Below are positions 4,562 to 47,030 of a DNA stretch of 64,000 bases, in pieces. Location of the stretch: positions 124,001 through 188,000 of the forward strand of contig JAGXFW010000023.1 in NCBI GenBank assembly GCA_024637035.1, read 5' to 3'. The notes beneath the pieces were generated by a model. That model searched no databases. It was given only the letters and a program-made list of their open reading frames with translations, and was not told where the DNA came from. How positions within the stretch are numbered: the first letter of the stretch is position 1; the number at the start of each line of letters is the position of its first letter. Source of the DNA: Actinomycetes bacterium. Lineage in GTDB: Bacteria > Actinomycetota > Thermoleophilia > RBG-16-64-13. The position numbers and the translations under genes were made by a program.

Positions 4562-5679
4562 TATTGGAAGGCCTCCCTGATGGAGAAGAGCATCTCTTCG
4601 AGTGCGCAACGCGCATCGACATTATATCTGAATCGCTCGCTGGTCCTTCCCACGGCCGACACGGCATCCAAGTAGCGATCCACCATGCCCGGGAACGACT
4701 GACCGCGCAACTCGAACAGGAAGTCGTAGTTCAGCACCGCGTCCTCTGCACCCACTGCGGATGCCACCAGATCGCGGTACCAGTGGGAGAAGGTGCCGAG
4801 CACCTCCTCCATGCCCCCGGTGACCGCACGACGCCGCTCCCGTTTCACCCTCTGCTCGTGTTGCTTCTCGAGTCTCGACCTCGTGCGGGCGTCGCCCGCC
4901 CACTGAAGCCGGTCGGCCTTCTCCGCCTCCAGAACCGCGGCTCGAGCGTCGGCGCGGCCCTCTACCGAGGCGAGGATCTCCTCGAGCATATTCTGAGCGT
5001 CGAGCGGCCCGGTAGTCGCGGCAGTCCGCGCCCAACCCAAGAGGCGCTCACGATGAGCGCGAGTACCGGCGTCGGTGGCCAGTTCTCGCGCGTAGGCCAG
5101 CCGACCCTGAGCCACCCGGGCATAGGCCACAGCCTCCACGTCGCTGCACCCATGGACGCTCCGCAGATGGTCGGCCAGCAAGGATGTCGCCACCCGCTGG
5201 AACGGTACTTTCTGGCAGCGGCTGACGATGGTGGGCGGCAGCAGCTCAGGCGAAGCAGACACCAGGATGAAGTGGGAGTGACCGGGCGGCTCCTCGAGTG
5301 TCTTGAGGAACGCGTTGGCCGCCTCGCGATTCATGTCCTCGGCGTCGAGTAACACGTAGACACGAGCCCGAGCTTCGAAAGGCCGCAGGACCACGTCCTT
5401 GTTGATGGCCCTGATCTGCTCGATGGTGATGAAGGCGCCTTCCGCGCTCACGATCTCGACGTCGGGATGCAGGCCGAGCCTGACACGCCGGCAGGTGTCG
5501 CACGCCGCGCAGCCACCTTTGGCGCAAATCAGCCCACCGGCGAAGGCGATGGCGGCTTCACTCTTGCCTACTCCATCCGGGCCCGTCAGCAGATACGCGT
5601 GCGAGGCGCCCGTCGCGAGCGCCTGCCTGAGCACGGTGAGGGCGAGTTCCTGCCCGAGGATGTCGGCGAAGAGCGGCAC
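4561..5679 (-). CDS. holB: DNA polymerase III delta' subunit
   Basis: This 372-residue clamp-loader subunit helps load the sliding clamp during replication. The AAA+ domain has Walker A GPDGVGKS (33-40), a zinc module with C52, C57, C60 and C63, and the SRC motif (S153-R154-C155) that supplies an arginine finger to the neighbouring ATPase. The intact P-loop fits the Gram-positive form. Residues 165-372 form the collar part. It lies between tmk and ricT, the classical replication-linked tmk-holB-ricT order, and its stop codon overlaps the ricT start. Confidence 0.92.
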   Translation of the reverse strand: MPLFADILGQELALTVLRQALATGASHAYLLTGPDGVGKSEAAIAFAGGLICAKGGCAACDTCRRVRLGLHPDVEIVSAEGAFITIEQIRAINKDVVLRPFEARARVYVLLDAEDMNREAANAFLKTLEEPPGHSHFILVSASPELLPPTIVSRCQKVPFQRVATSLLADHLRSVHGCSDVEAVAYARVAQGRLAYARELATDAGTRAHRERLLGWARTAATTGPLDAQNMLEEILASVEGRADARAAVLEAEKADRLQWAGDARTRSRLEKQHEQRVKRERRRAVTGGMEEVLGTFSHWYRDLVASAVGAEDAVLNYDFLFELRGQSFPGMVDRYLDAVSAVGRTSERFRYNVDARCALEEMLFSIREAFQ

Positions 5680-35201: not shown

Positions 35202-36152
35202 CTAGAGGGCCTTCAGCTTCTCCACCAGCGCCGGCAGCACCTCGTACAGGTTCCCGACTATGCCGTAGTCGGCGAGTTGGAAGATCGGCGCGTCCTTGTC
35301 GGTGTTGATCGCGGCGATCAGTTTCGCCGAGCTGATGCCCACCGTGTGTTGGATCTGTCCGGACACTCCCACTGCGAGATAGAAGTCGGGCTTGGTCTTG
35401 GCTCCCGAGAGACCGACGATGCGGTCCTCACCAAGCCACCCGAAGTCCGAGAGGCCCTTGGTGCAGGCCAGTTCGGCGCCGAGGGCTGCCGCCAACTCCT
35501 CGCCCAGGCCAAGGTCGTCGCGCTTCGCGAAACCCCGGCCCACGCCGACGATGCGCTCGGCCGCGTCGAGGTTGACGGCGTCGCCGTCTTTGGGGCGACG
35601 CGAGACCACTTTCGCGGCGGAGGGCTGCAGCGAGAGTGCGGCCTGCACGACCGCGCCGGCGCCGGCCACCGGCGCAGCGATCTCGAACGTCTTCGGCATG
35701 ACCGCGAACACCTTGGATTCGGTGGTGAGGTTCTCGCGGGCGACCGTGTTGCCGCCGAACGCGTATCGGCTCGCCACCACCGAGCCGTCGGTGAGCACCA
35801 GGGAGCTCACGTCGGTGACGCACCCCGCGCCGAGCTTCTGGGCGAGTCGCGGCGCCAATTCCTTTCCGCGCCGCGTCGAGGCGATCAGTACCATCGTGGC
35901 CCCGGCCTCGCAGGCCACTTGAGCCAGGGCTTCAGCTACCACGTCCACACCAAGGCCCTCGAGGGCGGGATCTTCGCTCACGAACACTCGGTCGACGCCG
36001 TGGGCACCCAGCGCTCCCGCCGAATCGGCGGCAGAGGGGCCGAAGGCAGCGGCGCTCAGGCCCATTCCCAGCGCGGCACCCAACTCCTTGCCCTTGAAGG
36101 CGAGTTCCAGGGCCGCGTCCTGCTTCTCTGAATACACAAGGATATCGGCCAT
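35202..36152 (-). CDS. etfA: Electron transfer flavoprotein alpha subunit
   Basis: 316 residues. The C-terminal FAD-binding domain has the usual signature (VGVSGQIQHTVGISSAKLIA and DAPIFQLADYGIVGN). With EtfB it accepts electrons from the acyl-CoA dehydrogenase encoded upstream and passes them to the FixC/FixX quinone oxidoreductase. ATG 36152 is two bases after the etfB stop; the frame's extension to 36329 is an etfB shadow. Confidence 0.94.
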   Translation of the reverse strand: MADILVYSEKQDAALELAFKGKELGAALGMGLSAAAFGPSAADSAGALGAHGVDRVFVSEDPALEGLGVDVVAEALAQVACEAGATMVLIASTRRGKELAPRLAQKLGAGCVTDVSSLVLTDGSVVASRYAFGGNTVARENLTTESKVFAVMPKTFEIAAPVAGAGAVVQAALSLQPSAAKVVSRRPKDGDAVNLDAAERIVGVGRGFAKRDDLGLGEELAAALGAELACTKGLSDFGWLGEDRIVGLSGAKTKPDFYLAVGVSGQIQHTVGISSAKLIAAINTDKDAPIFQLADYGIVGNLYEVLPALVEKLKAL

Positions 36153-36154
36153 GG

Positions 36155-36937
36155 CTATCTCCCCACGATCCCTTCTTTGAGCAGGGCATTCACGAGCCCG
36201 GCGGCCTGCTCCGCCGCGCCGCCCTCCAGCATGATGTGCTTGCGATCCTGCTCCTCGGCGAGGTTCGACAGCGTCTCGCACGATGACGCGACCGCGGCCG
36301 GGTCGAGGCCGAGATCGGCGAGGCTCCACTCCTCGGTGGGCTTCTTGCCGGCCTTCATGATGTTCATGAGAGACGGGATGCGCGGCTCGTTGATCTCGCT
36401 CACCACGGTGAGCACGGCGGGCAATGGAGCCTCGAGCGTCTCGATGTACTCGTCCATGCTCCGCTCGACCAGCACTCCGGCGCCGCCGGCGGTGATCTGC
36501 CTGGCATAACCGATCTGAGGCACACCCAGAAGCTCGGCCACCCTCGGACCTACCTGCCCCGAATAGTCGTCGCTCGACCCTTCTCCGAAGAGCACGAGGT
36601 CGTAGCTACCGATCTTCTGCAGGGCGGCGGCGAGCGTGCGGGCGACCCCTGCTTGGTCGGTGGACTCCAAGGCCGGGTCCACGATCAGCACGGCCTCGTC
36701 GGCACCCATGGCGAGCACCTCTTTGATGGTCTCGCGCACCTTGCGGTTGCTCTCGGCGACCGTCAGCACGATGACCTTGCTCTCACCCACGGCGTCGCGC
36801 AGTTGGAGCGCGGCCTCGACGGCGTTCTTGTCGAGATCGCCCGTCTTGTAGGGGATGGCCTCGAGAACGGGCTCCCGGTTCTTGATCCGGATCATCTGCA
36901 GATCCAGGTTTGTCTTCACGCTAACGACTATGTCCAA
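36155..36937 (-). CDS. etfB: Electron transfer flavoprotein beta subunit
   Basis: 260 residues of the EtfB/FixA family, binding AMP or a second FAD. TTG 36937 is preferred: GAAGGGTG precedes it and the protein then begins with the normal beta-strand DIVVSVKTN. The frame can be opened to 36994, but that would overlap the fixX stop at 36969. The segment FGEGSSDDYSGQVGPRVAEL is typical of the subunit. Whether this EtfAB confurcates or bifurcates electrons to ferredoxin cannot be settled from motifs I can see. Confidence 0.92.
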   Translation of the reverse strand: MDIVVSVKTNLDLQMIRIKNREPVLEAIPYKTGDLDKNAVEAALQLRDAVGESKVIVLTVAESNRKVRETIKEVLAMGADEAVLIVDPALESTDQAGVARTLAAALQKIGSYDLVLFGEGSSDDYSGQVGPRVAELLGVPQIGYARQITAGGAGVLVERSMDEYIETLEAPLPAVLTVVSEINEPRIPSLMNIMKAGKKPTEEWSLADLGLDPAAVASSCETLSNLAEEQDRKHIMLEGGAAEQAAGLVNALLKEGIVGR

Positions 36938-36968
36938 CGTTCCACACCCTTCTCTCGTGTTGCCGGGC

Positions 36969-37244
36969 CTAGCCCATGCGGTACTGCACCCCATATTCGC
37001 CCCGCGGATAGTGCCAATCGAGGGCCTGATGATCGCAGGATATGAGGCAGGTGCCGCACTCCAGGCAGCCCTCGAAGTTCACCGTGTTGTTGCCTTGGTC
37101 GTCGATCTCGTACAGGTGCGCCGGACAGACGTAGAGACAAGCCTTGTCGGTGCAGACCCTGTTGCACACCTCGACATCGATGGTGATGTGACGCTCTTTG
37201 TCGATCTTGAAGACGTCGAGCCCGAGCTTCGCTTCGATGTTCAT
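36969..37244 (-). CDS. fixX: Ferredoxin-like protein FixX
   Basis: 91 residues with one 4Fe-4S motif, CLECGTCLISC, and upstream cysteines in CNRVCTDKACLYVCPA. This matches the FixX family, which pairs with FixC to form a flavin and iron-sulfur electron-transfer flavoprotein:quinone oxidoreductase. It lies between fixC and etfB, the conserved order. Confidence 0.93.
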   Translation of the reverse strand: MNIEAKLGLDVFKIDKERHITIDVEVCNRVCTDKACLYVCPAHLYEIDDQGNNTVNFEGCLECGTCLISCDHQALDWHYPRGEYGVQYRMG

Positions 37245-37254
37245 CGCGCCCCTT

Positions 37255-38544
37255 TCAGATCTTCCGCATCGCGAGCAGCTCTTTGAGCGTGCGGGCGTTC
37301 ATGAAGTCCTTGCGGACTCCACCGATCACCGTACTGGAGAGCTTCTGCGAGGGGTGCGGACCGATGGTGTACAACTTCTCCAGGAGTCCGGAGACCGCCT
37401 GGGGGTAGTGGGTGAAGAGACGCGGGTTCTCCATGATGTGAGGGATCTCTTTCGCGGTCTCGAGGTCCTTGAGCACGAAGCTGCTGCGCAAAGACTGCTC
37501 GTACTGGGCCAGGCCGGCGGCCGAACAGTCGCCGCGGTTCTTGGCGTCGGCGACCGCGCGGGCCGCGTAGAAGCCGGAGGCGATAGCGAAATCCATGCCG
37601 CGCACGGTCAGAAGGGCGTTGAGAGCCAGCCCAGCCGCGTCGCCCACCATCAGGTAGCCGTCGCCGAACAGCTTCGGGACTTTGGCGATGCCGCCCTCGG
37701 GGATAGCGTGGGCCGAGTACTCCACCAGGGTGCCGCCCTCGACCAAGGGCCTGATGTGAGGCAGTTCTTTGAACGCGTCGAGCAGCGTGTGCGACTCGAC
37801 CTTCTCGGTGCGCTCCCTCATGGCTTCCATGCCCACCACGATGCCCAGCGAGATCGAGTCCTTGTTCGTGTAGAGGAAGCCGCCACCCATCATCCCTTTG
37901 GTGACCTCGCCCATGAACAGGTGTGCCGCGCCTTCGCCCTCGTTCAGATGCCACCGGTCTTGGATCACGCTCGACGGCAGCTCGAGGATCTCCTTGTAGC
38001 CCAGGGCGTGGTCGCGGGCGGTGGGCTGCTCACGCAGACCGACCTTCGACGAGAGAAGGCCGAGCACGCCCTCGGCGATGATGGTCACGTCGGCGCCGAT
38101 GTCGTCGCCGCCGGCACGGATGCCGATGACCTTGTCGCCCTCCATCAAGATCTCGTCCACCCGGTTCTTGGTGATGACCATGCCGCCCTTCTCCATCACC
38201 TGGTCGGCCAACCACTGGTCAAGACGAGCCCGCAACACGGTGTACGACTGGTGCGGGGCGGTCGCGAAGCGGTCGGAGGCCAACTCGATGGTGGTGGACG
38301 CGCCGTCGCCCATCAAGGTGACGAGTTCCCGCGTGACCGGCCGCTCGAACGGAGCCGACTCCCAGAGCTCGGGATAGATATCGCGGATGGGACTCAGGTA
38401 GAGCCGGCCGCCCGTGACGTTCTTGGCGCCCGAGTAGTCGCCCCGCTCCACCACCATCACTTCGAGCCCCTCCGACGCGAGGCCGTATGCAGCCGAGAGG
38501 CCGGCCAGACCCCCGCCTACGATGATGCAATCGACTTTTTCCAT
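37255..38544 (-). CDS. fixC: FixC-type ETF:quinone oxidoreductase flavoprotein
   Basis: 429 residues. The N-terminal FAD motif is VDCIIVGGGLAGLSAAYGLA and the second dinucleotide motif is GDGYLMVGDAAGLALNALLT. Accepts electrons from EtfAB and, with FixX, delivers them to the quinone pool. ATG 38544 has GGAAAGG nearby and begins exactly at the family start; the longer frame to 38661 runs into the repeat element. The 257-base space to the preceding acyl-CoA dehydrogenase gene contains a strong hairpin and the repeat, so fixC may be expressed at a different level. Confidence 0.93.
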   Translation of the reverse strand: MEKVDCIIVGGGLAGLSAAYGLASEGLEVMVVERGDYSGAKNVTGGRLYLSPIRDIYPELWESAPFERPVTRELVTLMGDGASTTIELASDRFATAPHQSYTVLRARLDQWLADQVMEKGGMVITKNRVDEILMEGDKVIGIRAGGDDIGADVTIIAEGVLGLLSSKVGLREQPTARDHALGYKEILELPSSVIQDRWHLNEGEGAAHLFMGEVTKGMMGGGFLYTNKDSISLGIVVGMEAMRERTEKVESHTLLDAFKELPHIRPLVEGGTLVEYSAHAIPEGGIAKVPKLFGDGYLMVGDAAGLALNALLTVRGMDFAIASGFYAARAVADAKNRGDCSAAGLAQYEQSLRSSFVLKDLETAKEIPHIMENPRLFTHYPQAVSGLLEKLYTIGPHPSQKLSSTVIGGVRKDFMNARTLKELLAMRKI

Positions 38545-38573
38545 GCGACCTTTCCTCGCGGGATACCGGTGGA

Positions 38574-38598
38574 GGCGCCGCCGCCGGGCGGCGGCGCC
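38574..38598. other. Very stable GC hairpin upstream of fixC
   Basis: An 11-bp perfect stem (GGCGCCGCCGC with loop CGG) lies 30 bases before the fixC ATG on the transcribed strand. It could stabilise an mRNA end or attenuate transcription within the operon. Confidence 0.55.
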
Positions 38599-38617
38599 CC
38601 CACACTCGAACGTCTGA

Positions 38618-38800
38618 CTGGGAGGCTGTTGAAGATCGAAGCCTTGGCCGCCAGAACGCACTGGACGGCGCGATGCGGCGTCCTCGGTCGCGCACGTAGC
38701 GCTGCTACGAGCGCTGCTACGAGCGCTCCCTCTCGTCCTTGTCTCGCGCGTGTCTATCGCGCCCCGGCGGCGAAGCGTCCATTCTTCAACAGCCTGCTAG
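38618..38800. repeat. 183-bp element with inverted ends (copy 1 of a dispersed family)
   Basis: The left end CTGGGAGGCTGTTGAAGAT (from 38618) and the reverse complement of the right end CTAGCAGGCTGTTGAAGAA (from 38800) match at about 17 of 19 bases. The first ~78 bases match a second copy at 43937-44021 with about six mismatches and one gap. The interior includes a tandem GCGCTGCTACGA. It ends one base from the acyl-CoA dehydrogenase stop codon. There is no coding frame I trust inside. It resembles a miniature inverted-repeat element or a REP-like mRNA 3' structure. Confidence 0.7.
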
Positions 38801-38801
38801 A

Positions 38802-40031
38802 TCAGTCGTCGGCCCGGAACGGGTTGGCGGCTTCGCCCCACAGATCGCGGGCGATGATACCGCGCATGACGTTGAGGCCACCCTCAGCTCCCACTTCGTA
38901 CGACATGATGCCGCGAAGCATCATCTCGAGCGGGGTCTCCTTCGTGTAGCCGAAGGCGCCGTGGTACATCATCCCGTGGCGGGCCACATCGTGACCGAGC
39001 GTCGGGGAGAGGCACTTGACCGTGGCGATGACCTTGTTGATGTCCTTGCGGCTGAAGGTGCCGGGGTTCTGGCCCTCGTAGCCGATCATCCAGGCGCCCC
39101 GCAGCAGGTTCATCTTGAGCATGTCGAGCTGCATCCAGTCGTTCACCATCTCGAACGAGGTCGCCTCGTACTTGATGAGCGGACGGCCGAACATCTTACG
39201 CTGCGTGCTGTACTCGGCGCTGATCTCGAGGCCCTTCTCGGCACCGCCGAGGCAAGCCGCGGCGACGAGCACACGGGCGGCGTTGAAGCCTTCCATCACG
39301 TGGTAGAAGCCCTTGCCCTCTTCACCGAGCAGGCAGTATTCGGGCACCTTGGCGTCCTTGTACAGCCAGCCACCGGTGGAGAGACCCATGCGACCCATGT
39401 CCTCGTAGACAGTCCAGCTGATGCCGTCGAGGTGCGCGGGGATGTAGACGAAGGTGAGACCCTTGTGACCGGTGGTCGGGTCGGTGACCACGAGCGAGCA
39501 GTGACCGCTCGGGGCGCCCAGCTTCATGCATTCCTTGGGACCGGAGACGTACGCCTTCTCGCCGTTCATGACGTAGTAGCCGTCTTTTTTGAAGCCGGTG
39601 GTCTTGATGCGGGCAAGGTCGGAACCGCCACCGGGCTCGGTGGTGTTGATGCCCACGAACGCCTTGCCGGCGGCCGCGGCGGGGAGCACTTCCTCGCGCA
39701 GCTGCTGGGTGCCGAACTTGTTCACGATGTACGACCAGCCGATTGTGAGCAGCGTGTACACCGGGGTCGACATCGAGAGGTCGGCGCGGGCGATCTCATG
39801 GATCGCGATCATCGCGTAGATCAGCTCTTCGCCGGGGACGGCGCAGCCGCCGAGCTCCTCGGGGATGGTCACGCCGAAGACACCCAGATCGACGAGGCCC
39901 TGGACGATGTCGTCCGGGATACCGTTCTCATCCTTGTCGATCTGCCGCGCCCGAGGCTCGAGGTTCTTGGTGGCCCATTCGCGGACACCCTGCCTGAACA
40001 GTTCCTGCTCCGTGCTGTACCTGAAATCCAT
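38802..40031 (-). CDS. Acyl-CoA dehydrogenase
   Basis: 409 residues with the typical three-domain fold. FAD/substrate motifs GINTTEPGGGSDLARIKTTG and the central WTVYEDMGRMGLSTG are present. The C-terminal YEVGAEGGLN aligns with the region that normally holds the catalytic Glu. It oxidises (or, in reverse, reduces) an acyl-CoA and exchanges electrons with EtfAB encoded downstream. Between a CaiB-type CoA transferase and fixC, the layout recalls the carnitine/crotonobetaine (cai-fix) systems, but the substrate is unknown. ATG 40031 has AAGGAGG upstream. Confidence 0.93.
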   Translation of the reverse strand: MDFRYSTEQELFRQGVREWATKNLEPRARQIDKDENGIPDDIVQGLVDLGVFGVTIPEELGGCAVPGEELIYAMIAIHEIARADLSMSTPVYTLLTIGWSYIVNKFGTQQLREEVLPAAAAGKAFVGINTTEPGGGSDLARIKTTGFKKDGYYVMNGEKAYVSGPKECMKLGAPSGHCSLVVTDPTTGHKGLTFVYIPAHLDGISWTVYEDMGRMGLSTGGWLYKDAKVPEYCLLGEEGKGFYHVMEGFNAARVLVAAACLGGAEKGLEISAEYSTQRKMFGRPLIKYEATSFEMVNDWMQLDMLKMNLLRGAWMIGYEGQNPGTFSRKDINKVIATVKCLSPTLGHDVARHGMMYHGAFGYTKETPLEMMLRGIMSYEVGAEGGLNVMRGIIARDLWGEAANPFRADD

Positions 40032-40249
40032 TCCTCTGACTCCTCCTTATGGATAGTCCGTTCCAAGTCCCTCCCGGCTGTTCACCGGACGCGAGACGGC
40101 CTTGGCCTCCGTGACCCGGGCTCTTCCTGACGCCCGTCTTCCCACCCATTTCTCCCGCCCCTGCGCCTCCTTGTTCGAGCCGGTTCTTACGGTGAATCAC
40201 CACCTCCGCGCCGCCACAGCGCCGCGGGAGCCCGGATCCCTGATGAGAA

Positions 40250-41437
40250 CTAGATGACGCCCGCGGCCCGCAGAGCCGCGACCTCACTCTGGCCATACCC
40301 GAGTTCCGCCAGCACTTCGTCGGTGTGTTCGCCCAGCAGAGGCGGATGGCGGTAGTACGCGGCCGGGGTCTCACTCATCTTGAGGGGACTCCCCACCATC
40401 TTGATCGTGCCGGCCGTGGGGTGCTGCATCTCGACTACCATCTCGCGTGCGATCACCTGAGGATCCTCGAACACCTCAGGGATCGAGTTGATGGGGCCCG
40501 CCGGTATCTTCTCGCGGTGGAACAGCGCCAGCCACTCCTCTGCCGGCCGCCGCTCGAGGTATCCCGCCAACGTCGCGATGAGCTCGCCTCGGTTCTCCAC
40601 CCTCATGGGATTAGTGGCAAAACGCGGCTCCGACGCCAACTCCGGAGCCTCGATGAGCTCCGTGAAACGACGGAACTGCGAATCGTTGCCCACGGCGACG
40701 TTGAACCACTTGTCGCTCCCACGGAACGTCTCGTAGGGGACGATGTTCGGATGTGCGTTGCCGTAGCGCTTCGGCGTCGCCCCGCCTACCAGGTAGTTGC
40801 TCGCCCGGTTGATGAGCCACGCCACCTGAGAGTCCAGTAGCGAGATGTCGATGGACTGGCCGACCCCGGTGTTGTGTCGCGATTCCAGCGCCGCGAGAAC
40901 CGCGATGGTCGCGTTCATGGCCGCGGTCACGTCCACGATGGCGAGACCCACCTTCATCGGCGGACCGTCCGTCTCACCGGTGATGCTCATGATGCCGCCG
41001 CGCCCCTGGATAGCGAAGTCGTAGCCCGGCTGGTCCGCGTCGGGGCCCGTCTGGCCATAGCCGGTGATGGAGCAGTAGATGAGGCCGGGGTTCTCGGCTT
41101 TCAGCGCCTCGTATCCTAGGCCCATGCGTTCGAGCGTGCCGGTCTTGAAGTTCTCTACCAGGATATCGGCGTCGGCGGCCAGGCGCCGCACCAGCGCGCG
41201 CCCTTCGTCGCTCTTCATGTCGACGGTGATGCTGCGCTTGTTGCGGTTCACGCACAAGTAGTAGGCGGACTCGGTGCCGGCCCACGGGGGACCCCATTCG
41301 CGGGTCTCGTCGCCGCCGCCCGGGCGCTCGACTTTGACGACGTCGGCACCCAGATCTGCGAGCATCATCGCGCACAAGGGCCCGGCAAGGACCCGCGACA
41401 GGTCCAGTACCCGTATCCCTTCGAGTGCTGCTGCCAT
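40250..41437 (-). CDS. CaiB/BaiF family (type III) CoA transferase
   Basis: 395 residues. Family III CoA transferases move CoA between carboxylic acids through an aspartyl anhydride. The N-terminal ALEGIRVLDLSRVLAGPLC and ADLGADVVKVERP, plus QPGYDFAIQGRGGIMSITG, are diagnostic. It would activate the acid that the neighbouring acyl-CoA dehydrogenase then uses. ATG 41437 has GGAGG 7 bases upstream; the open frame to 41623 is not homologous. 218 bases separate it from the downstream acyl-CoA dehydrogenase. Confidence 0.93.
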   Translation of the reverse strand: MAAALEGIRVLDLSRVLAGPLCAMMLADLGADVVKVERPGGGDETREWGPPWAGTESAYYLCVNRNKRSITVDMKSDEGRALVRRLAADADILVENFKTGTLERMGLGYEALKAENPGLIYCSITGYGQTGPDADQPGYDFAIQGRGGIMSITGETDGPPMKVGLAIVDVTAAMNATIAVLAALESRHNTGVGQSIDISLLDSQVAWLINRASNYLVGGATPKRYGNAHPNIVPYETFRGSDKWFNVAVGNDSQFRRFTELIEAPELASEPRFATNPMRVENRGELIATLAGYLERRPAEEWLALFHREKIPAGPINSIPEVFEDPQVIAREMVVEMQHPTAGTIKMVGSPLKMSETPAAYYRHPPLLGEHTDEVLAELGYGQSEVAALRAAGVI

Positions 41438-41759
41438 ATTCGATCCTCCGCCGTGTCCTGGTCCGCGACCGAACCCCCACGAAGACGCCACACGGCAGCC
41501 CGGACGCGGGGTGGCCCAACCCACCGAAGGACGGCCACGGCCGACCCGGGAAAGGCTCTTGGTTCGCTGGAGGCTCATAGCCGTTGGAAGGGGCGGCAGA
41601 GACGGTGCCGTCACCGGGGCCATGCGAGCAGCGTTACCCGTTCACTATCCCACTTCGTGTCAGTCCGTGCAAGCCTGGGGACAGGCCGCGCAACCGACTT
41701 CCGCCGGGCCCGAAGACAACGGCGCGAGAGCCTTCAGACTTGGGGCACAGGAGGTCGGA
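41438..41759. other. Intergenic region with a possible caiB-type gene promoter
   Basis: No gene is supported in this 322-base gap. On the - strand TTGCAC (41667-41672), 17 bases, GATAGT (41644-41649) is a possible promoter about 200 bases before the CoA transferase start. Confidence 0.35.
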
Positions 41760-42131
41760 TCACTCCAGATCAGACGGCGTCGAGACGACCTCGGAGTCTT
41801 CCCCCAGCACGAGCGGGGACGCATCGACCGCCTCGAAGACCTTGTGCAAGGCGAATATAAGAGCGCCTTGCGAGTGACCGCGGTATCGCGTGCGGATGAG
41901 CGCCTCCATCTCCTCACGATCGGCGAGGATAGAGCGCCCAGTGAGCAGACCTGCCAGATAGTCACGCGCAAGCTCGGTCACAAGGGTGGACGAGCAGCGC
42001 ACGATCACGCCGGTGGCGTCCACCTCGGCCACCACTCCCACTCGCTTGTAGACGGCCTGATGCGAGACGTTCTGCGGAAGGCGGGCGTAGCCCGAGAAGA
42101 GGTATGTGATCGAATCGTCCACGACCGCCAC
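41760..42131 (-). CDS. DUF3870 protein
   Basis: 123 residues matching the DUF3870 family (YLFSGYARLPQNVSHQAVYK, VGVVAEVDATGVIVRCSSTL and the RYRGHSQGALIFAL segment). Function unknown; such genes are commonly near acyl-CoA or amino-acid degradation genes. The start is GTG 42131 or the GTG three codons later; no strong ribosome-binding site separates them. First gene of the - strand cluster, divergent from the GntR-HAD regulator. Confidence 0.8.
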   Translation of the reverse strand: MAVVDDSITYLFSGYARLPQNVSHQAVYKRVGVVAEVDATGVIVRCSSTLVTELARDYLAGLLTGRSILADREEMEALIRTRYRGHSQGALIFALHKVFEAVDASPLVLGEDSEVVSTPSDLE

Positions 42132-42277: not shown

Positions 42278-42306
42278 TTGCGCTCGGGTAGTATTGGTAT
42301 TACCAT
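42278..42306 (+). promoter_or_regulatory. Predicted promoter of the GntR-HAD gene
   Basis: -35 TTGCGC (42278-42283), 17-base spacer, -10 TACCAT (42301-42306). The operator-like palindrome overlaps the -10 element, as expected for autorepression. Confidence 0.4.
42294..42305. promoter_or_regulatory. FadR/PdhR-type operator candidate
   Basis: TTGGTATTACCA, flanked as ATTGGTATTACCATC, matches the TTGGT-N2-3-ACCA pattern bound by FadR-subfamily GntR regulators such as PdhR and LldR. It lies between the DUF3870/acyl-CoA cluster and the divergently read GntR-HAD gene, so that protein is the obvious candidate ligand. Confidence 0.6.
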
Positions 42307-42380
42307 CTGACCAACCGCAGCGATATGACCAATAGCAGCGCGCAGACCGCCGCTCGGCCGAACCAGGGCGGAGCGCGGAC

Positions 42381-42394
42381 AGGAGGAAGTCCTG
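42381..42394 (+). promoter_or_regulatory. Shine-Dalgarno and possible CTG start of the GntR-HAD gene
   Basis: AGGAGG (42381-42386) lies five bases before an in-frame CTG (42392) but 29 bases before the GTG at 42416. Translation from CTG would add eight residues ahead of TPRRVSDEIA, the normal beginning of FadR-type helix-turn-helix domains. Confidence 0.4.
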
Positions 42395-42415
42395 AGTTCC
42401 GACGGTTACCGACCC

Positions 42416-43936
42416 GTGACGCCACGCCGGGTGTCCGACGAGATCGCCTACCGGCTGCGAGACCTCATCCTCAAGGGCGAGATCGCCCCAGGAGACAGGC
42501 TGCCTTCGGAGAGAGAACTCGGCCGAAGATTCGAAACCGGCAGACCCGCCGTGCGCGAGGCCCTTCGTGAACTCCAGGCGCAGGGCCACCTCACCATCGG
42601 TCGCGGACGTCAGGGAACGCGCGTGGTGGCGAACGTCGAGGGGGCGGGCCTCCACGCCCTCCCGGCCCTGTCGTTCCACCGGGATGCCAACGCGCAGGCA
42701 GCCGTGATCCATCTGATGGAGGTGCGAGTGGCCGTCGAGACCGAGATGGCCGCACTGGCGGCGCGCCGAGCCGACCGGCCGGCGCTGAAGGAGCTCGCCG
42801 ACGCCACCGTGTCGGTCGACCGGCTCGACGCCGACGGCGATAGCAGGTTCCATCAGACGTTGGCACTCGCAGCGGGTAACCCGATGTTGCGACAGGCCGC
42901 CGCCGACTTGCTCGCCCACCTTCGTGCTCTGAGCGGGCCGGAACTCGCCGGACTCTACGCCCAACCCCACAACGCCATGGTCGCGGGCCAGCACGAAGCG
43001 GTGCTCGACGCCGTGCGCCGCGGTGACGAAGAGGGGGCGCGGCGCGCGATGCGGACACACCTCTCGTATGTCACACGGTCACTCCGCAGCTCGATCGGCG
43101 CCCTTCCCGAGATCCGCATGGTGGTGAGCGATATCGACGGGACATTGCTGAGCGGACCGCGATCGATCACCCCCCGCACCCACGCTGCGGTCTACGCGGC
43201 ACGAGAGGCAGGCGTGCTCTTCGTGCTGGCGTCGGCCCGACCGCCGCGATCGATGCGGGCGTACCATTCGGAACTCGGCCTTACGACTCCCGTGATCGCC
43301 GGGAACGGCGCCCTACTCTGGGACCTCGGCAAGTCCATCCCTCTGTCGCGCGAGTCACTCGATATCCGCCTGGCGAGGGAAGCGGTGGAACTTGGAAAGG
43401 CTGTCGGGGCGATCCCCAACATCGAGAGCGACGACGAATGGTTCGCCGAGCGGGTGACCGACCGCATCATGCGGAATCTGGGCACATACGGGGTCGAACC
43501 GCCTCATCGTATCGGGCCGCTGGACGATATCCTGGCGAGCGACGACCCGGTCGACAAGGTGTTCCTCGATCTCCGCGACCTCCCGCCGGATGCGCGGATC
43601 GCGGCTCGCGCTGCGATATCGACCGCCCTTGACGAGCACGCCAACATCTCTGAGTCGGTGGACGGATTGGTGGATATCGTCGCGCGTCGGGCGTCCAAAG
43701 CCGTGATGGCCCAGAGGTTCGCTCGATCGAAAGGCGTCTCGGCCGACCAGGTGCTCGCCATCGGCGACCACGACAACGACATCGCCCTGCTCGGTTGGGC
43801 AGGGGTGGGCGTCGCGATGGGCAACGCGACTTCGGGGGCGAAGGCGATGGCGGATCTGGTGACCTCGTCCAACGTGCGCGACGGCCTGGCCGAGGCGATC
43901 GAGCGGTGGGTGCTGCCTGACACGGCATCCGTCTGA
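42416..43936 (+). CDS. FadR-type GntR regulator fused to Cof-like HAD hydrolase
   Basis: 506 residues. Residues 3-70 are a GntR winged helix (VSDEIAYRLRDLILKGEIAP, LPSERELGRRFE). Residues 95-225 are an FCD ligand domain with probable metal ligands H146, H193 and H215. From 234 a complete Cof/Cad-type HAD phosphatase follows, with DxD motif D239/D241 (VVSDIDGTLLSG), a GNGALLWD loop and the C-terminal GDHDNDIALL motif. A regulator carrying its own sugar- or flavin-phosphate-type phosphatase is unusual. The adjacent palindrome at 42294-42305 and divergent acyl-CoA genes suggest it controls them and itself. Start GTG 42416 or CTG 42392. Confidence 0.88.
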   Translation: MTPRRVSDEIAYRLRDLILKGEIAPGDRLPSERELGRRFETGRPAVREALRELQAQGHLTIGRGRQGTRVVANVEGAGLHALPALSFHRDANAQAAVIHLMEVRVAVETEMAALAARRADRPALKELADATVSVDRLDADGDSRFHQTLALAAGNPMLRQAAADLLAHLRALSGPELAGLYAQPHNAMVAGQHEAVLDAVRRGDEEGARRAMRTHLSYVTRSLRSSIGALPEIRMVVSDIDGTLLSGPRSITPRTHAAVYAAREAGVLFVLASARPPRSMRAYHSELGLTTPVIAGNGALLWDLGKSIPLSRESLDIRLAREAVELGKAVGAIPNIESDDEWFAERVTDRIMRNLGTYGVEPPHRIGPLDDILASDDPVDKVFLDLRDLPPDARIAARAAISTALDEHANISESVDGLVDIVARRASKAVMAQRFARSKGVSADQVLAIGDHDNDIALLGWAGVGVAMGNATSGAKAMADLVTSSNVRDGLAEAIERWVLPDTASV

Positions 43937-44305: not shown

Positions 44306-46399
44306 CTACCTCTTGCGCGCGACCATCGCGAAGAAGGGCACGCTCACCACTTCCTCTTCGATGACCTCGAACCATGGGTCCAGAGCCGCCCGCACCTCCG
44401 CCTCAGAGAGGCGGTGCTCCAGGGGCGGCCCCTGCACGGTCGCCTCGGGATCACGCCGCCAGTCGACGACGACGAAAAGCCCGCCGCTCCGAAGGGCGCG
44501 TCCGAGCAGTTCCAGACCCTCGGTCCCGTGAGATTCGTGGAAGGTGTTGACGCTGAAGGCCCTGTCGATCGATGCCTCCGCCAGGGGAAGCGATCCGGCG
44601 TCGGCCAGTATCAGCTCCACGTTGTGCGGCACGCCGTTCTTGCGGTGAAAGTCGAGCATCTCCTGCTGTAGTTCGATCGCATACAGTCGGCCGGTGGTCC
44701 ACTTTGCCACCCGGTTCGTCCAGAACCCGGTGCCGCTGCCAAGGTCGGCGACATCCTCGTGGCCTTCAAGGCGTAGAAGCCGAGCCATGGTCTCCTCGCT
44801 CAGCCAGCCGAGTCGGCCCACATCGTCGAGGACCGCCGCCTTCTTCGGAGAGAAGACCTTGCCATGCGTCGTGCCATGCGTCGTGCCATGCGTCGTGCCG
44901 TGCTGCTCTTCGTCGCTCATGGGATCGATGACCTCCTGCTCTTGAGGGAGCGCAGGCGAGGACCCGCTCGGGATCGTGGACAGTGATGCGGCCCCTGCCT
45001 GAAGCCCAGCGGCCGACGGGCCCCAGGCCGCATGAGCCTTCACAAAGGTCGTGGAGACCGTGATCGAGAGCGTCGACCAGAACGCGCCCAAGCTGAAACC
45101 AGCCAGCACATCGCTCAAGTAATGCACTCCTAGGTACATGCGGCTAAAACCCACAAGCACCACGACGGCGACTGCAGAGAGAAGCACGTACACCCTCGTC
45201 TCCCAATGACGCACCCAGCCGGTCGCAAGGAGCGCGAGGGTCATATAAAACGCGGCCGCAGCCGACGCATGCCCGCTTGGAAACGAGTATCCGGTCACGT
45301 CGATGAGCGGTACGAGAAAATCGGGGCGCGGGCGTTCGATGAGCAGCTTCAGCGCTGCGTTCAGCATCGCGGCGCCGGATGTCGCCGTGACAAGCACCAG
45401 GGCCTCGCCCCACCGGCGCCGCGCGACCAGGACTCCGCCCAACACGAGGGAGGCCGGCACCAAAGTCCACCCGCCGCCCATAGAGGTCACCGCGATCATC
45501 ACCGACGTGACCCAGGGGATGGCGTGATCGTGCAGGGTCTGAGCAACGGTCCGGTCGAACAGGGTGAGGGGCTCACGCGCCAGAACATCTTCGAGGATGG
45601 CACCGAACGCCCATCCCAAGAGCAGCGACACGATGAGGCCGATCGTCAGACTGAGGCCGAAGGTTCGCCGCGGTGAGAAGCGCCGCGACAACCAAGCTAT
45701 CTGGGCCGAGAATCGACCACTGATGGCGGTGACGACACGCGTGCCGACGATCCGGTCGGTGAGTTCGAAGGCCAGCCGCTCGAGCTTCTCGCGACGAGGC
45801 CAGAGCCAGCGCCCCAACATGGCGAGCAAGACCCCCGAGACCACCAGAAGCGCGAGGAAGAGAGCTATCCGGCCGAGCCACTGCTCCGCCATATGGTAGC
45901 TGCGACCGAACACGTACCCGAGCAGAGTGACGGCCAGCCCCCAGCTCAGTGCACCCGCCAGGTCGTACACGGCGAAACGCGAATAGCGCATGCGCGCCGA
46001 ACCGGCGATGAACGGAGCGAGAGACCGTAGGAAACCCACCCACCGGCCGAACAGTACGGTCTTCCCGCCGTGACGCTCGAAGAAGCCCTCGGTCCGTTCG
46101 ACGTGATTCGGTTTGATGCGGAAGATGCGGCCGTGCCGAAGAAGGAAGTCGCGCCCGAGCTTCCTTCCAAGGAAGAACCCCGCGGTATCGCCCAGCACCG
46201 CGCCGATGCAGACGACGGCGGCAAGGTCGCCGATGTCCAGCACTCCCTGCGACGCGAGTGCGCCTGCCAGGAGCACCGTGGTCTCCCCGGGCACGAGGAG
46301 CCCGACCATCGCGGAGGTCTCGAGGAATACGATGGCGAAGACGATCCACAGGCCCCAATCCCCGGCAACGCGCACGAAGAAGTCGAGGAATGCCTGCAT
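44306..46399 (-). CDS. Triple fusion: DedA/VTT membrane protein, PAP2 phosphatase, SAM methyltransferase
   Basis: One open frame of 697 residues from ATG 46399. Residues 1-200 are a DedA/SNARE-associated (VTT) domain, a family linked to polyprenyl or phospholipid scrambling. Residues 255-450 are a PAP2 lipid phosphatase with all three motifs: KLLIERPRPD, YSFPSGHAS and SRMYLGVHYLSD. A linker with three HGTT units leads to a class I methyltransferase at about 535-697 (VADLGSGTGFWTNRVA). DedA-PAP2 fusions are known and fit lipid-carrier recycling; the added methyltransferase is unusual. An internal ATG (MSDEEQHGTT) could also start the methyltransferase separately. The frame to 46489 beyond the chosen ATG is not conserved. 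Confidence 0.88.
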   Translation of the reverse strand: MQAFLDFFVRVAGDWGLWIVFAIVFLETSAMVGLLVPGETTVLLAGALASQGVLDIGDLAAVVCIGAVLGDTAGFFLGRKLGRDFLLRHGRIFRIKPNHVERTEGFFERHGGKTVLFGRWVGFLRSLAPFIAGSARMRYSRFAVYDLAGALSWGLAVTLLGYVFGRSYHMAEQWLGRIALFLALLVVSGVLLAMLGRWLWPRREKLERLAFELTDRIVGTRVVTAISGRFSAQIAWLSRRFSPRRTFGLSLTIGLIVSLLLGWAFGAILEDVLAREPLTLFDRTVAQTLHDHAIPWVTSVMIAVTSMGGGWTLVPASLVLGGVLVARRRWGEALVLVTATSGAAMLNAALKLLIERPRPDFLVPLIDVTGYSFPSGHASAAAAFYMTLALLATGWVRHWETRVYVLLSAVAVVVLVGFSRMYLGVHYLSDVLAGFSLGAFWSTLSITVSTTFVKAHAAWGPSAAGLQAGAASLSTIPSGSSPALPQEQEVIDPMSDEEQHGTTHGTTHGTTHGKVFSPKKAAVLDDVGRLGWLSEETMARLLRLEGHEDVADLGSGTGFWTNRVAKWTTGRLYAIELQQEMLDFHRKNGVPHNVELILADAGSLPLAEASIDRAFSVNTFHESHGTEGLELLGRALRSGGLFVVVDWRRDPEATVQGPPLEHRLSEAEVRAALDPWFEVIEEEVVSVPFFAMVARKR
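44861..44896. repeat. Three tandem 12-bp units in the fusion linker
   Basis: GCCATGCGTCGT is repeated three times without change (44861, 44873, 44885), followed by a degenerate fourth unit. On the coding strand it encodes HGTT repeats between the PAP2 and methyltransferase parts. Identical copies suggest recent slippage. Confidence 0.9.
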
Positions 46400-46433
46400 A
46401 CCTTGGTGAGCCCTCGGCCGCCCTGCGGGCGGG

Positions 46434-47030
46434 CTAGAAGCCCACGAAGACCGCGGCCGCGACAGCGGTGGTCCAGCGGCCCTCGCCATCCCCGGCGGCT
46501 GAGACGGTCTTGTTGGTGGTGGCGAAGATCTTCCCTCCGATCACCAACTGCCGACGACGCTCGTCCCAACGGACGTTCTCGTCGCACTCCACGCCCAGGG
46601 TACTGGCGAGCATGCTCGCGGCCAGATCCTCGGCATAGTCGCCGGCTTGCTGCGCGGTCTCCCCGTAACCCTCATGCTCACTGAGGTACCCGTAGTGAGA
46701 GGCGTCGGTTGGCAAGGCGAGTCCGATGGACGAGGCCACAAGCCGGCCGGGCTCGTCCGTGGCTATCTCCGCCACCACGCAGAAGGTGATGGCACCCGCA
46801 TGGATGGAGGCGATCCCCTCGTCACGTTCGATCAGCTGGCAGTGGGGGGGGAAGATGCTCGACACCCTCACGAGGTTGCACCGTTCGATGCCCGCTTCGC
46901 GGAGGGCGAACTCGAAGGAGGTGAGTTTGCGGCTCGAGACGCCGATCCCACCGGTGAGGAACACCTTCTTGGGGATGGGGACCGCGAGCGCCGACTCCAC
47001 GCCCGACTCGGTGGTGTGGTCTACCGACAT
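46434..47030 (-). CDS. pdaD: Pyruvoyl-dependent arginine decarboxylase
   Basis: 198 residues. The enzyme cleaves itself between two serines to make a pyruvoyl cofactor and converts arginine to agmatine, the first step of one polyamine route or of acid resistance. The cleavage site is S57-S58 in VRVSSIFPP, and the conserved acidic motif SEHEGYGETAQQAGDYAEDL includes the catalytic Glu. ATG 47030 has GGGAGG upstream; the frame extension to 47123 is not homologous. Placed after the 2-oxoacid oxidoreductase genes, 73 bases downstream, with no obvious metabolic link. Confidence 0.9.
   Translation of the reverse strand: MSVDHTTESGVESALAVPIPKKVFLTGGIGVSSRKLTSFEFALREAGIERCNLVRVSSIFPPHCQLIERDEGIASIHAGAITFCVVAEIATDEPGRLVASSIGLALPTDASHYGYLSEHEGYGETAQQAGDYAEDLAASMLASTLGVECDENVRWDERRRQLVIGGKIFATTNKTVSAAGDGEGRWTTAVAAAVFVGF

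Follow-up and report, generated by a model that had tools for sequence, protein, structure and literature searches.

The window, that is, the whole 64,000-nucleotide stretch of DNA analysed here, carries on its forward strand a single open reading frame (42416-43936) that encodes 506 amino acids when read from its GTG codon, from which all residue numbers below are counted. From N- to C-terminus, the protein consists of a winged helix of the GntR type, a sensor domain of the FCD class and a complete HAD-IIB domain of the Cof type, as follows:

42416..43936, + strand: fusion gene, frame opening at GTG (sequence, open reading frame translation, domain profiles)
42437..42625, + strand: GntR winged helix-turn-helix, residues 8-70 (PF00392, E 1.2e-17)
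42713..43066, + strand: FCD effector domain, residues 100-217 (PF07729, E 1.8e-20)
43121..43900, + strand: Cof-type HAD-IIB domain, residues 236-495 (PF08282 Hydrolase_3, E 1.2e-45; TIGR00099 above cut-off)
43127..43144, + strand: HAD motif I SDIDGT with catalytic D239 and D241, intact in the window and lost in 6 of 14 orthologues

The PF00392 and PF07729 matches exceed their curated cut-offs, and the PF08282 match spans all 255 model positions (156.6 bits vs a cut-off of 20.9). The window protein also scores above the threshold of the Cof subfamily, TIGR00099 (158.9 bits vs 137), and below that of the YidA sugar phosphatase equivalog PRK10513 (123.9 bits vs 273). Assignment to FadR proper, the fatty-acid regulator, was rejected, as the TIGR02812 equivalog reached 40 bits against a cut-off of 249. 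Sequence matches in the PDB divide by region, with NanR covering residues 4-221 and YidA covering residues 233-502. An AlphaFold2 model derived from the 14 orthologues (mean pLDDT 77.8, pTM 0.61) places the structural elements in the expected order; in VIA-align comparisons, residues 230-501 of the model superimposed on YidA 1rkq (Z 29.4, rmsd 2.4 over 250 aligned residues at 30% identity), as did the FCD part on PmiR and DhdR (Z ~20, rmsd 1.7-1.8). Within the FCD domain, D142, H146, H193 and H215 are invariant in 14/14 orthologues and constitute a candidate metal site, with a spacing that matches the ligands of TM0439 and HypR; those of TM0439 are given as D130/H134/H174/H196 in the HypR paper (PMC6608401). 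FCD regulators typically, if not by strict definition, end after the FCD domain, and here the HAD-IIB domain follows at residues 236-495. Sequencing error does not account for the fusion, because relatives at 46-84% identity are also single open frames. These relatives and the domain profiles confirm the original prediction that a GntR-type DNA-binding domain, a ligand-binding domain and a complete Cof-like HAD phosphatase domain reside in one protein.

Full-length orthologues in this identity range were found in 14 of the 18 genomes of the uncultured Actinomycetota family to which the window belongs. This family is known from MAGs as far as its members are named, and the 14 orthologues, which represent one family, are not statistically independent. 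G005, G010, G013 and G014 encode separate GntR or HAD proteins only. The suggested survey of the spread of the fusion recovered none in ~380 further genomes from the class, nor in ~390 from the phylum sample (the samples overlap in part). Class matches such as L020 and L028 proved to be stand-alone Cof HADs, and L156-L158 stand-alone GntR proteins. When 84,980 species were scanned with the cap motif E[SC]DDEWF and an HTH motif as seeds, the fusions among the matches listed came only from uncultured Actinomycetota MAGs matching the same family genomes. In the plasmid and phage collections, no match covered 80% of the fusion protein: tblastn matches on Rhizobium plasmids spanning residues 4-298 were GntR proteins of ~235 aa without a fusion, and the phage matches shown covered the HAD part only. 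Across the genomes sampled, the fusion is specific to this family, absence elsewhere not being proven by the 84,980-species scan.

Upstream of the frame lie the elements predicted to govern its expression:

42278..42283, + strand: putative -35 element TTGCGC, spacer of 17 to the -10
42294..42305, + strand: FadR-type operator TTGGTATTACCA, fitting TNGTNNNACNA
42301..42306, + strand: putative -10 element TACCAT (TANNNT), overlapped by the operator; same hexamer in orthologues
42381..42386, + strand: Shine-Dalgarno sequence AGGAGG, read from the sequence and conserved in the sister species L007
42392..42415, + strand: possible N-terminal extension from a CTG start 5 nt 3' of the Shine-Dalgarno sequence

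The span first proposed for this gene, 42278-43936, was correct at its end, where the open reading frame stops; its beginning coincides with the -35 element, and the frame itself opens at 42416 or at the CTG at 42392. Either of the two may initiate translation, and both lie 3' of the transcription start predicted near 42313. The GTG has no Shine-Dalgarno sequence; AGGAGG precedes the CTG by 5 nt, and the extension is partly conserved in its codons (LSSDGYRP in the window, LSPDDYRP in L007, ...LRPVTPRT in relatives). In nine of the 12 orthologous promoters with the palindrome, an ATG stands 6-7 nt 3' of the -10, a layout described for leaderless actinobacterial genes (PMC3160421). Relatives encode the N-terminal extension in a region that, in the window's genus (window 42306-42392 and upstream of L007), no longer seems to be in frame; a Shine-Dalgarno start further 3' may have taken the place of a leaderless one there.

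As had been proposed, a FadR-type palindrome (42294-42305) overlaps the gene's own -10 (42301-42306), and this arrangement recurs upstream of 12 of the 14 orthologues, which carry GGTNNTACC[AT]T. The FadR consensus TNGTNNNACNA is quoted elsewhere (PMC9145765). A TTG occurs 17 or 18 bp 5' of the -10 in 10 of these 12 promoters, compared with a composition expectation of ~2% per sequence, the sequences being related and not independent. A generic sigma-70 scan reported no promoter here, and the promoter is called solely because of its conservation upstream of the orthologues. In the window alone, TTGGTATTACCA at one mismatch is no commoner than chance would give; the palindrome plus ACC pattern gave 0 control matches in 17 genomes. 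In G003 and G008 the gene lies behind ychF; the former has a variant site, TGGTAAGACCA, before ychF instead, and in the latter the site was looked for and not found. Exact and relaxed pattern scans of the family genomes recovered, apart from the gene's own promoter, few sites outside coding sequence; extra matches were rejected as regulon sites, nearly all falling within coding sequence. Because no other promoter site was found consistently, autoregulation through the predicted operator across the -10 is the supported role.

The site had also been linked to the acyl-CoA cluster that it faces:

35202..42131, - strand: divergent neighbours (context), comprising ETF alpha/beta, a small FixX-sized ORF, a FixC-like protein, an acyl-CoA dehydrogenase, a class III CoA-transferase and DUF3870

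This link proved weak. The cluster adjoins the fusion gene in only 4 of 14 genomes (G000, G001, G003 and G008), while in G012 and nine others the gene is flanked by other genes, on the 5' side most often by nuo and tatC (a tatC-fusion next to nuo). Moreover, the cluster's own putative promoter, a TACACT hexamer ahead of DUF3870 that the sister species shares, is ~157 bp away from the window operator. Control of the cluster by TTGGTATTACCA is not supported by these arrangements. In several relatives, genes for acetate kinase and/or phosphoketolase occur within 10 kb of the fusion gene (L040 1146-5005).

Two further sets of palindromes were observed. A FadR-type palindrome lies just 3' of the cobO stop codon, before a convergent rlmN-like gene, at ~1500 of L140/L175 (G004) and ~1500 of L139 (G007); this intergenic site is found in two genomes of two genera and has no obvious target gene. 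On contig C19 of G000, two TGGTCWGACCA palindromes at 4923 and 5061 (L183, L185), 138 bp apart, stand beside an FCD-type GntR gene (C19:5244-5879), and are probably operators of that paralogue itself.

The HAD domain differs among the orthologues in its active site. In the window copy, all HAD motifs (DxD, S/T, K, GDxxND) are intact, as D239-x-D241, S273, K428 and D451/N454/D455. The DxD is kept in eight orthologues; motif I reads NLG in L010, GLG in L011, NLD in L012, GLD in L015, and DLG in both L016 and L019. Mapped on the tree, the nucleophile was lost at least three times and the acid at least four times, giving at least seven losses in five lineages. The motif IV Asn (N454) is replaced in 9 of 14 orthologues, and the full canonical set persists in five: the window copy, L007, L008, L009 and L014. 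In contrast, the DxD is intact in 13/13 unfused HAD-IIB homologues of the same class (broken in 6/14 fused vs 0/13 unfused; Fisher P 0.016, not corrected for relatedness). The domain is nevertheless under purifying selection, with dN/dS of 0.04-0.16, and 0.04 between L011 and L015, both without the nucleophile (dS is high and all these values approximate). The phosphate/Mg site residues S273, K428, D451 and D455 are invariant in the 14 orthologues, and little or no variation is seen in the non-catalytic pocket residues S273, R275, K428, D451 and D455 or in the cap motif DDEWF/DDDWF. In most of the family genomes the fused copy is the sole strong full-length Hydrolase_3 match, and in G006, G008, G011, G016 and G017 the only strong copy is a catalytically broken one. 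Since the DxD has been lost under purifying selection, the HAD domain must be kept in those lineages for a function other than hydrolysis, and ligand sensing fits better as its shared role.

We favour, at a little under an even chance, an autoregulating FadR-type (GntR/FCD) factor to which a YidA/Cof-like HAD-IIB domain has been added as a second module for ligand binding. A dimer would bind TTGGTATTACCA and block its own promoter, and two ligands would set its affinity for DNA, a small carboxylate bound through metal by the FCD domain and a phosphorylated metabolite bound in the pocket of the HAD domain; we infer the repression, the ligands and any coupling of the HAD domain to DNA binding from the sequences. 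The window copy, with every catalytic residue kept, may still hydrolyse its HAD ligand, and activity may persist within the window's genus. In several relatives no phospho-aspartate could form, so that binding rather than turnover would be the likely conserved role, and the DxD-less proteins can be likened to a substrate-trap mutant. The sensor reading is favoured by the occurrence of the fusion in 14 of 18 family genomes and by the conservation of operator and promoter in 12 of 14, the site being almost confined to the gene's own promoter. Against it stand the intact active site in the window, where turnover is possible, and the full motif set of five of the 14. It is plausible, if somewhat short of an even chance, that one family has been caught turning a phosphatase into a sensor, with several independent active-site losses and with the same autoregulated promoter under the control of catalytic versions in some members and non-catalytic ones in others.

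The original prediction envisaged a regulator that destroys or generates its own effector. Such a trigger enzyme, in which an active phosphatase consumes or supplies the effector that the FCD domain senses and so makes regulation self-limiting, would draw on the physical fusion of phosphatase and regulator, on an FCD metal-carboxylate site that could read a dephosphorylated acid, and on the complete motif set of the window copy and the four orthologues that share it. It may hold for the window protein, but effector destruction or production is not the family's common mechanism, because the DxD is broken in six of 14 orthologues whose HAD domain is otherwise conserved under purifying selection; with N454 also replaced in nine, we regard the trigger enzyme as rather unlikely. 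The same broken copies weigh on the idea that the protein is a house-keeping phosphatase whose DNA-binding part does no more than adjust its amount, without any other regulon. A site confined to the gene's own promoter, with other matches almost all in coding sequence, and a fused copy that is usually the genome's sole strong Cof-type HAD would suit this arrangement. However, the five genomes with only a broken strong copy imply that the enzyme cannot be the conserved output, and the idea appears improbable. Finally, retention of the fold through repeated loss of catalytic residues could mean that the HAD domain serves structure or protein contacts, shaping the dimer or docking a partner without binding small molecules. 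The conservation of S273, R275, K428, D451, D455 and the DDEWF/DDDWF cap motif suggests instead a retained ligand site, which makes a module of this kind similarly improbable.

The ligand-sensing reading can be set against known systems on both sides of the fusion. FadR-subfamily FCD regulators (NanR 6on4, DhdR 9jpj/9vkn, TM0439, HypR, CitO) share with it the GntR head, the Asp/His metal-site residues of the FCD domain and, as predicted for the fusion, a TNGTNNNACNA-type operator and autoregulation; however, the known members end after the FCD domain at ~220-260 aa, and none has a HAD domain. YidA/Cof-type HAD-IIB sugar phosphatases (1rkq, TIGR00099) resemble the window copy in their whole fold with cap and their full catalytic set. 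Stand-alone Cof-type enzymes keep the DxD (13/13 unfused relatives), whereas here the domain is fused to a DNA-binding protein and often broken. Metabolic enzyme folds have been reused in other transcription regulators, often with loss of catalysis, as in the aminotransferase-like MocR/GabR, the sugar-phosphate folds of SorC and RpiR, and the eukaryotic HAD protein Eyes absent. These enzyme-derived sensors differ from the fusion in belonging to other folds or kingdoms. No bacterial fusion of FCD and HAD-IIB (GntR-HAD) was found in the literature searched, its coverage being partial and a prior description possible. If the reading is true, active sites ranging from complete to broken within one orthologous gene would let the change from enzyme to sensor be studied in a natural series, and the large FCD class, few of whose ligands are known, would gain a module that senses phosphometabolites. 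First tests can be aimed directly at the predicted operator and the conserved promoter.

Downstream of the fusion gene, the window also contains a 727-aa single frame on the reverse strand (44306-46489) that joins DedA/VTT, PAP2 phosphatase and SAM methyltransferase domains; in the sister species its conserved counterpart is 697 aa long (L036 6765-8858).
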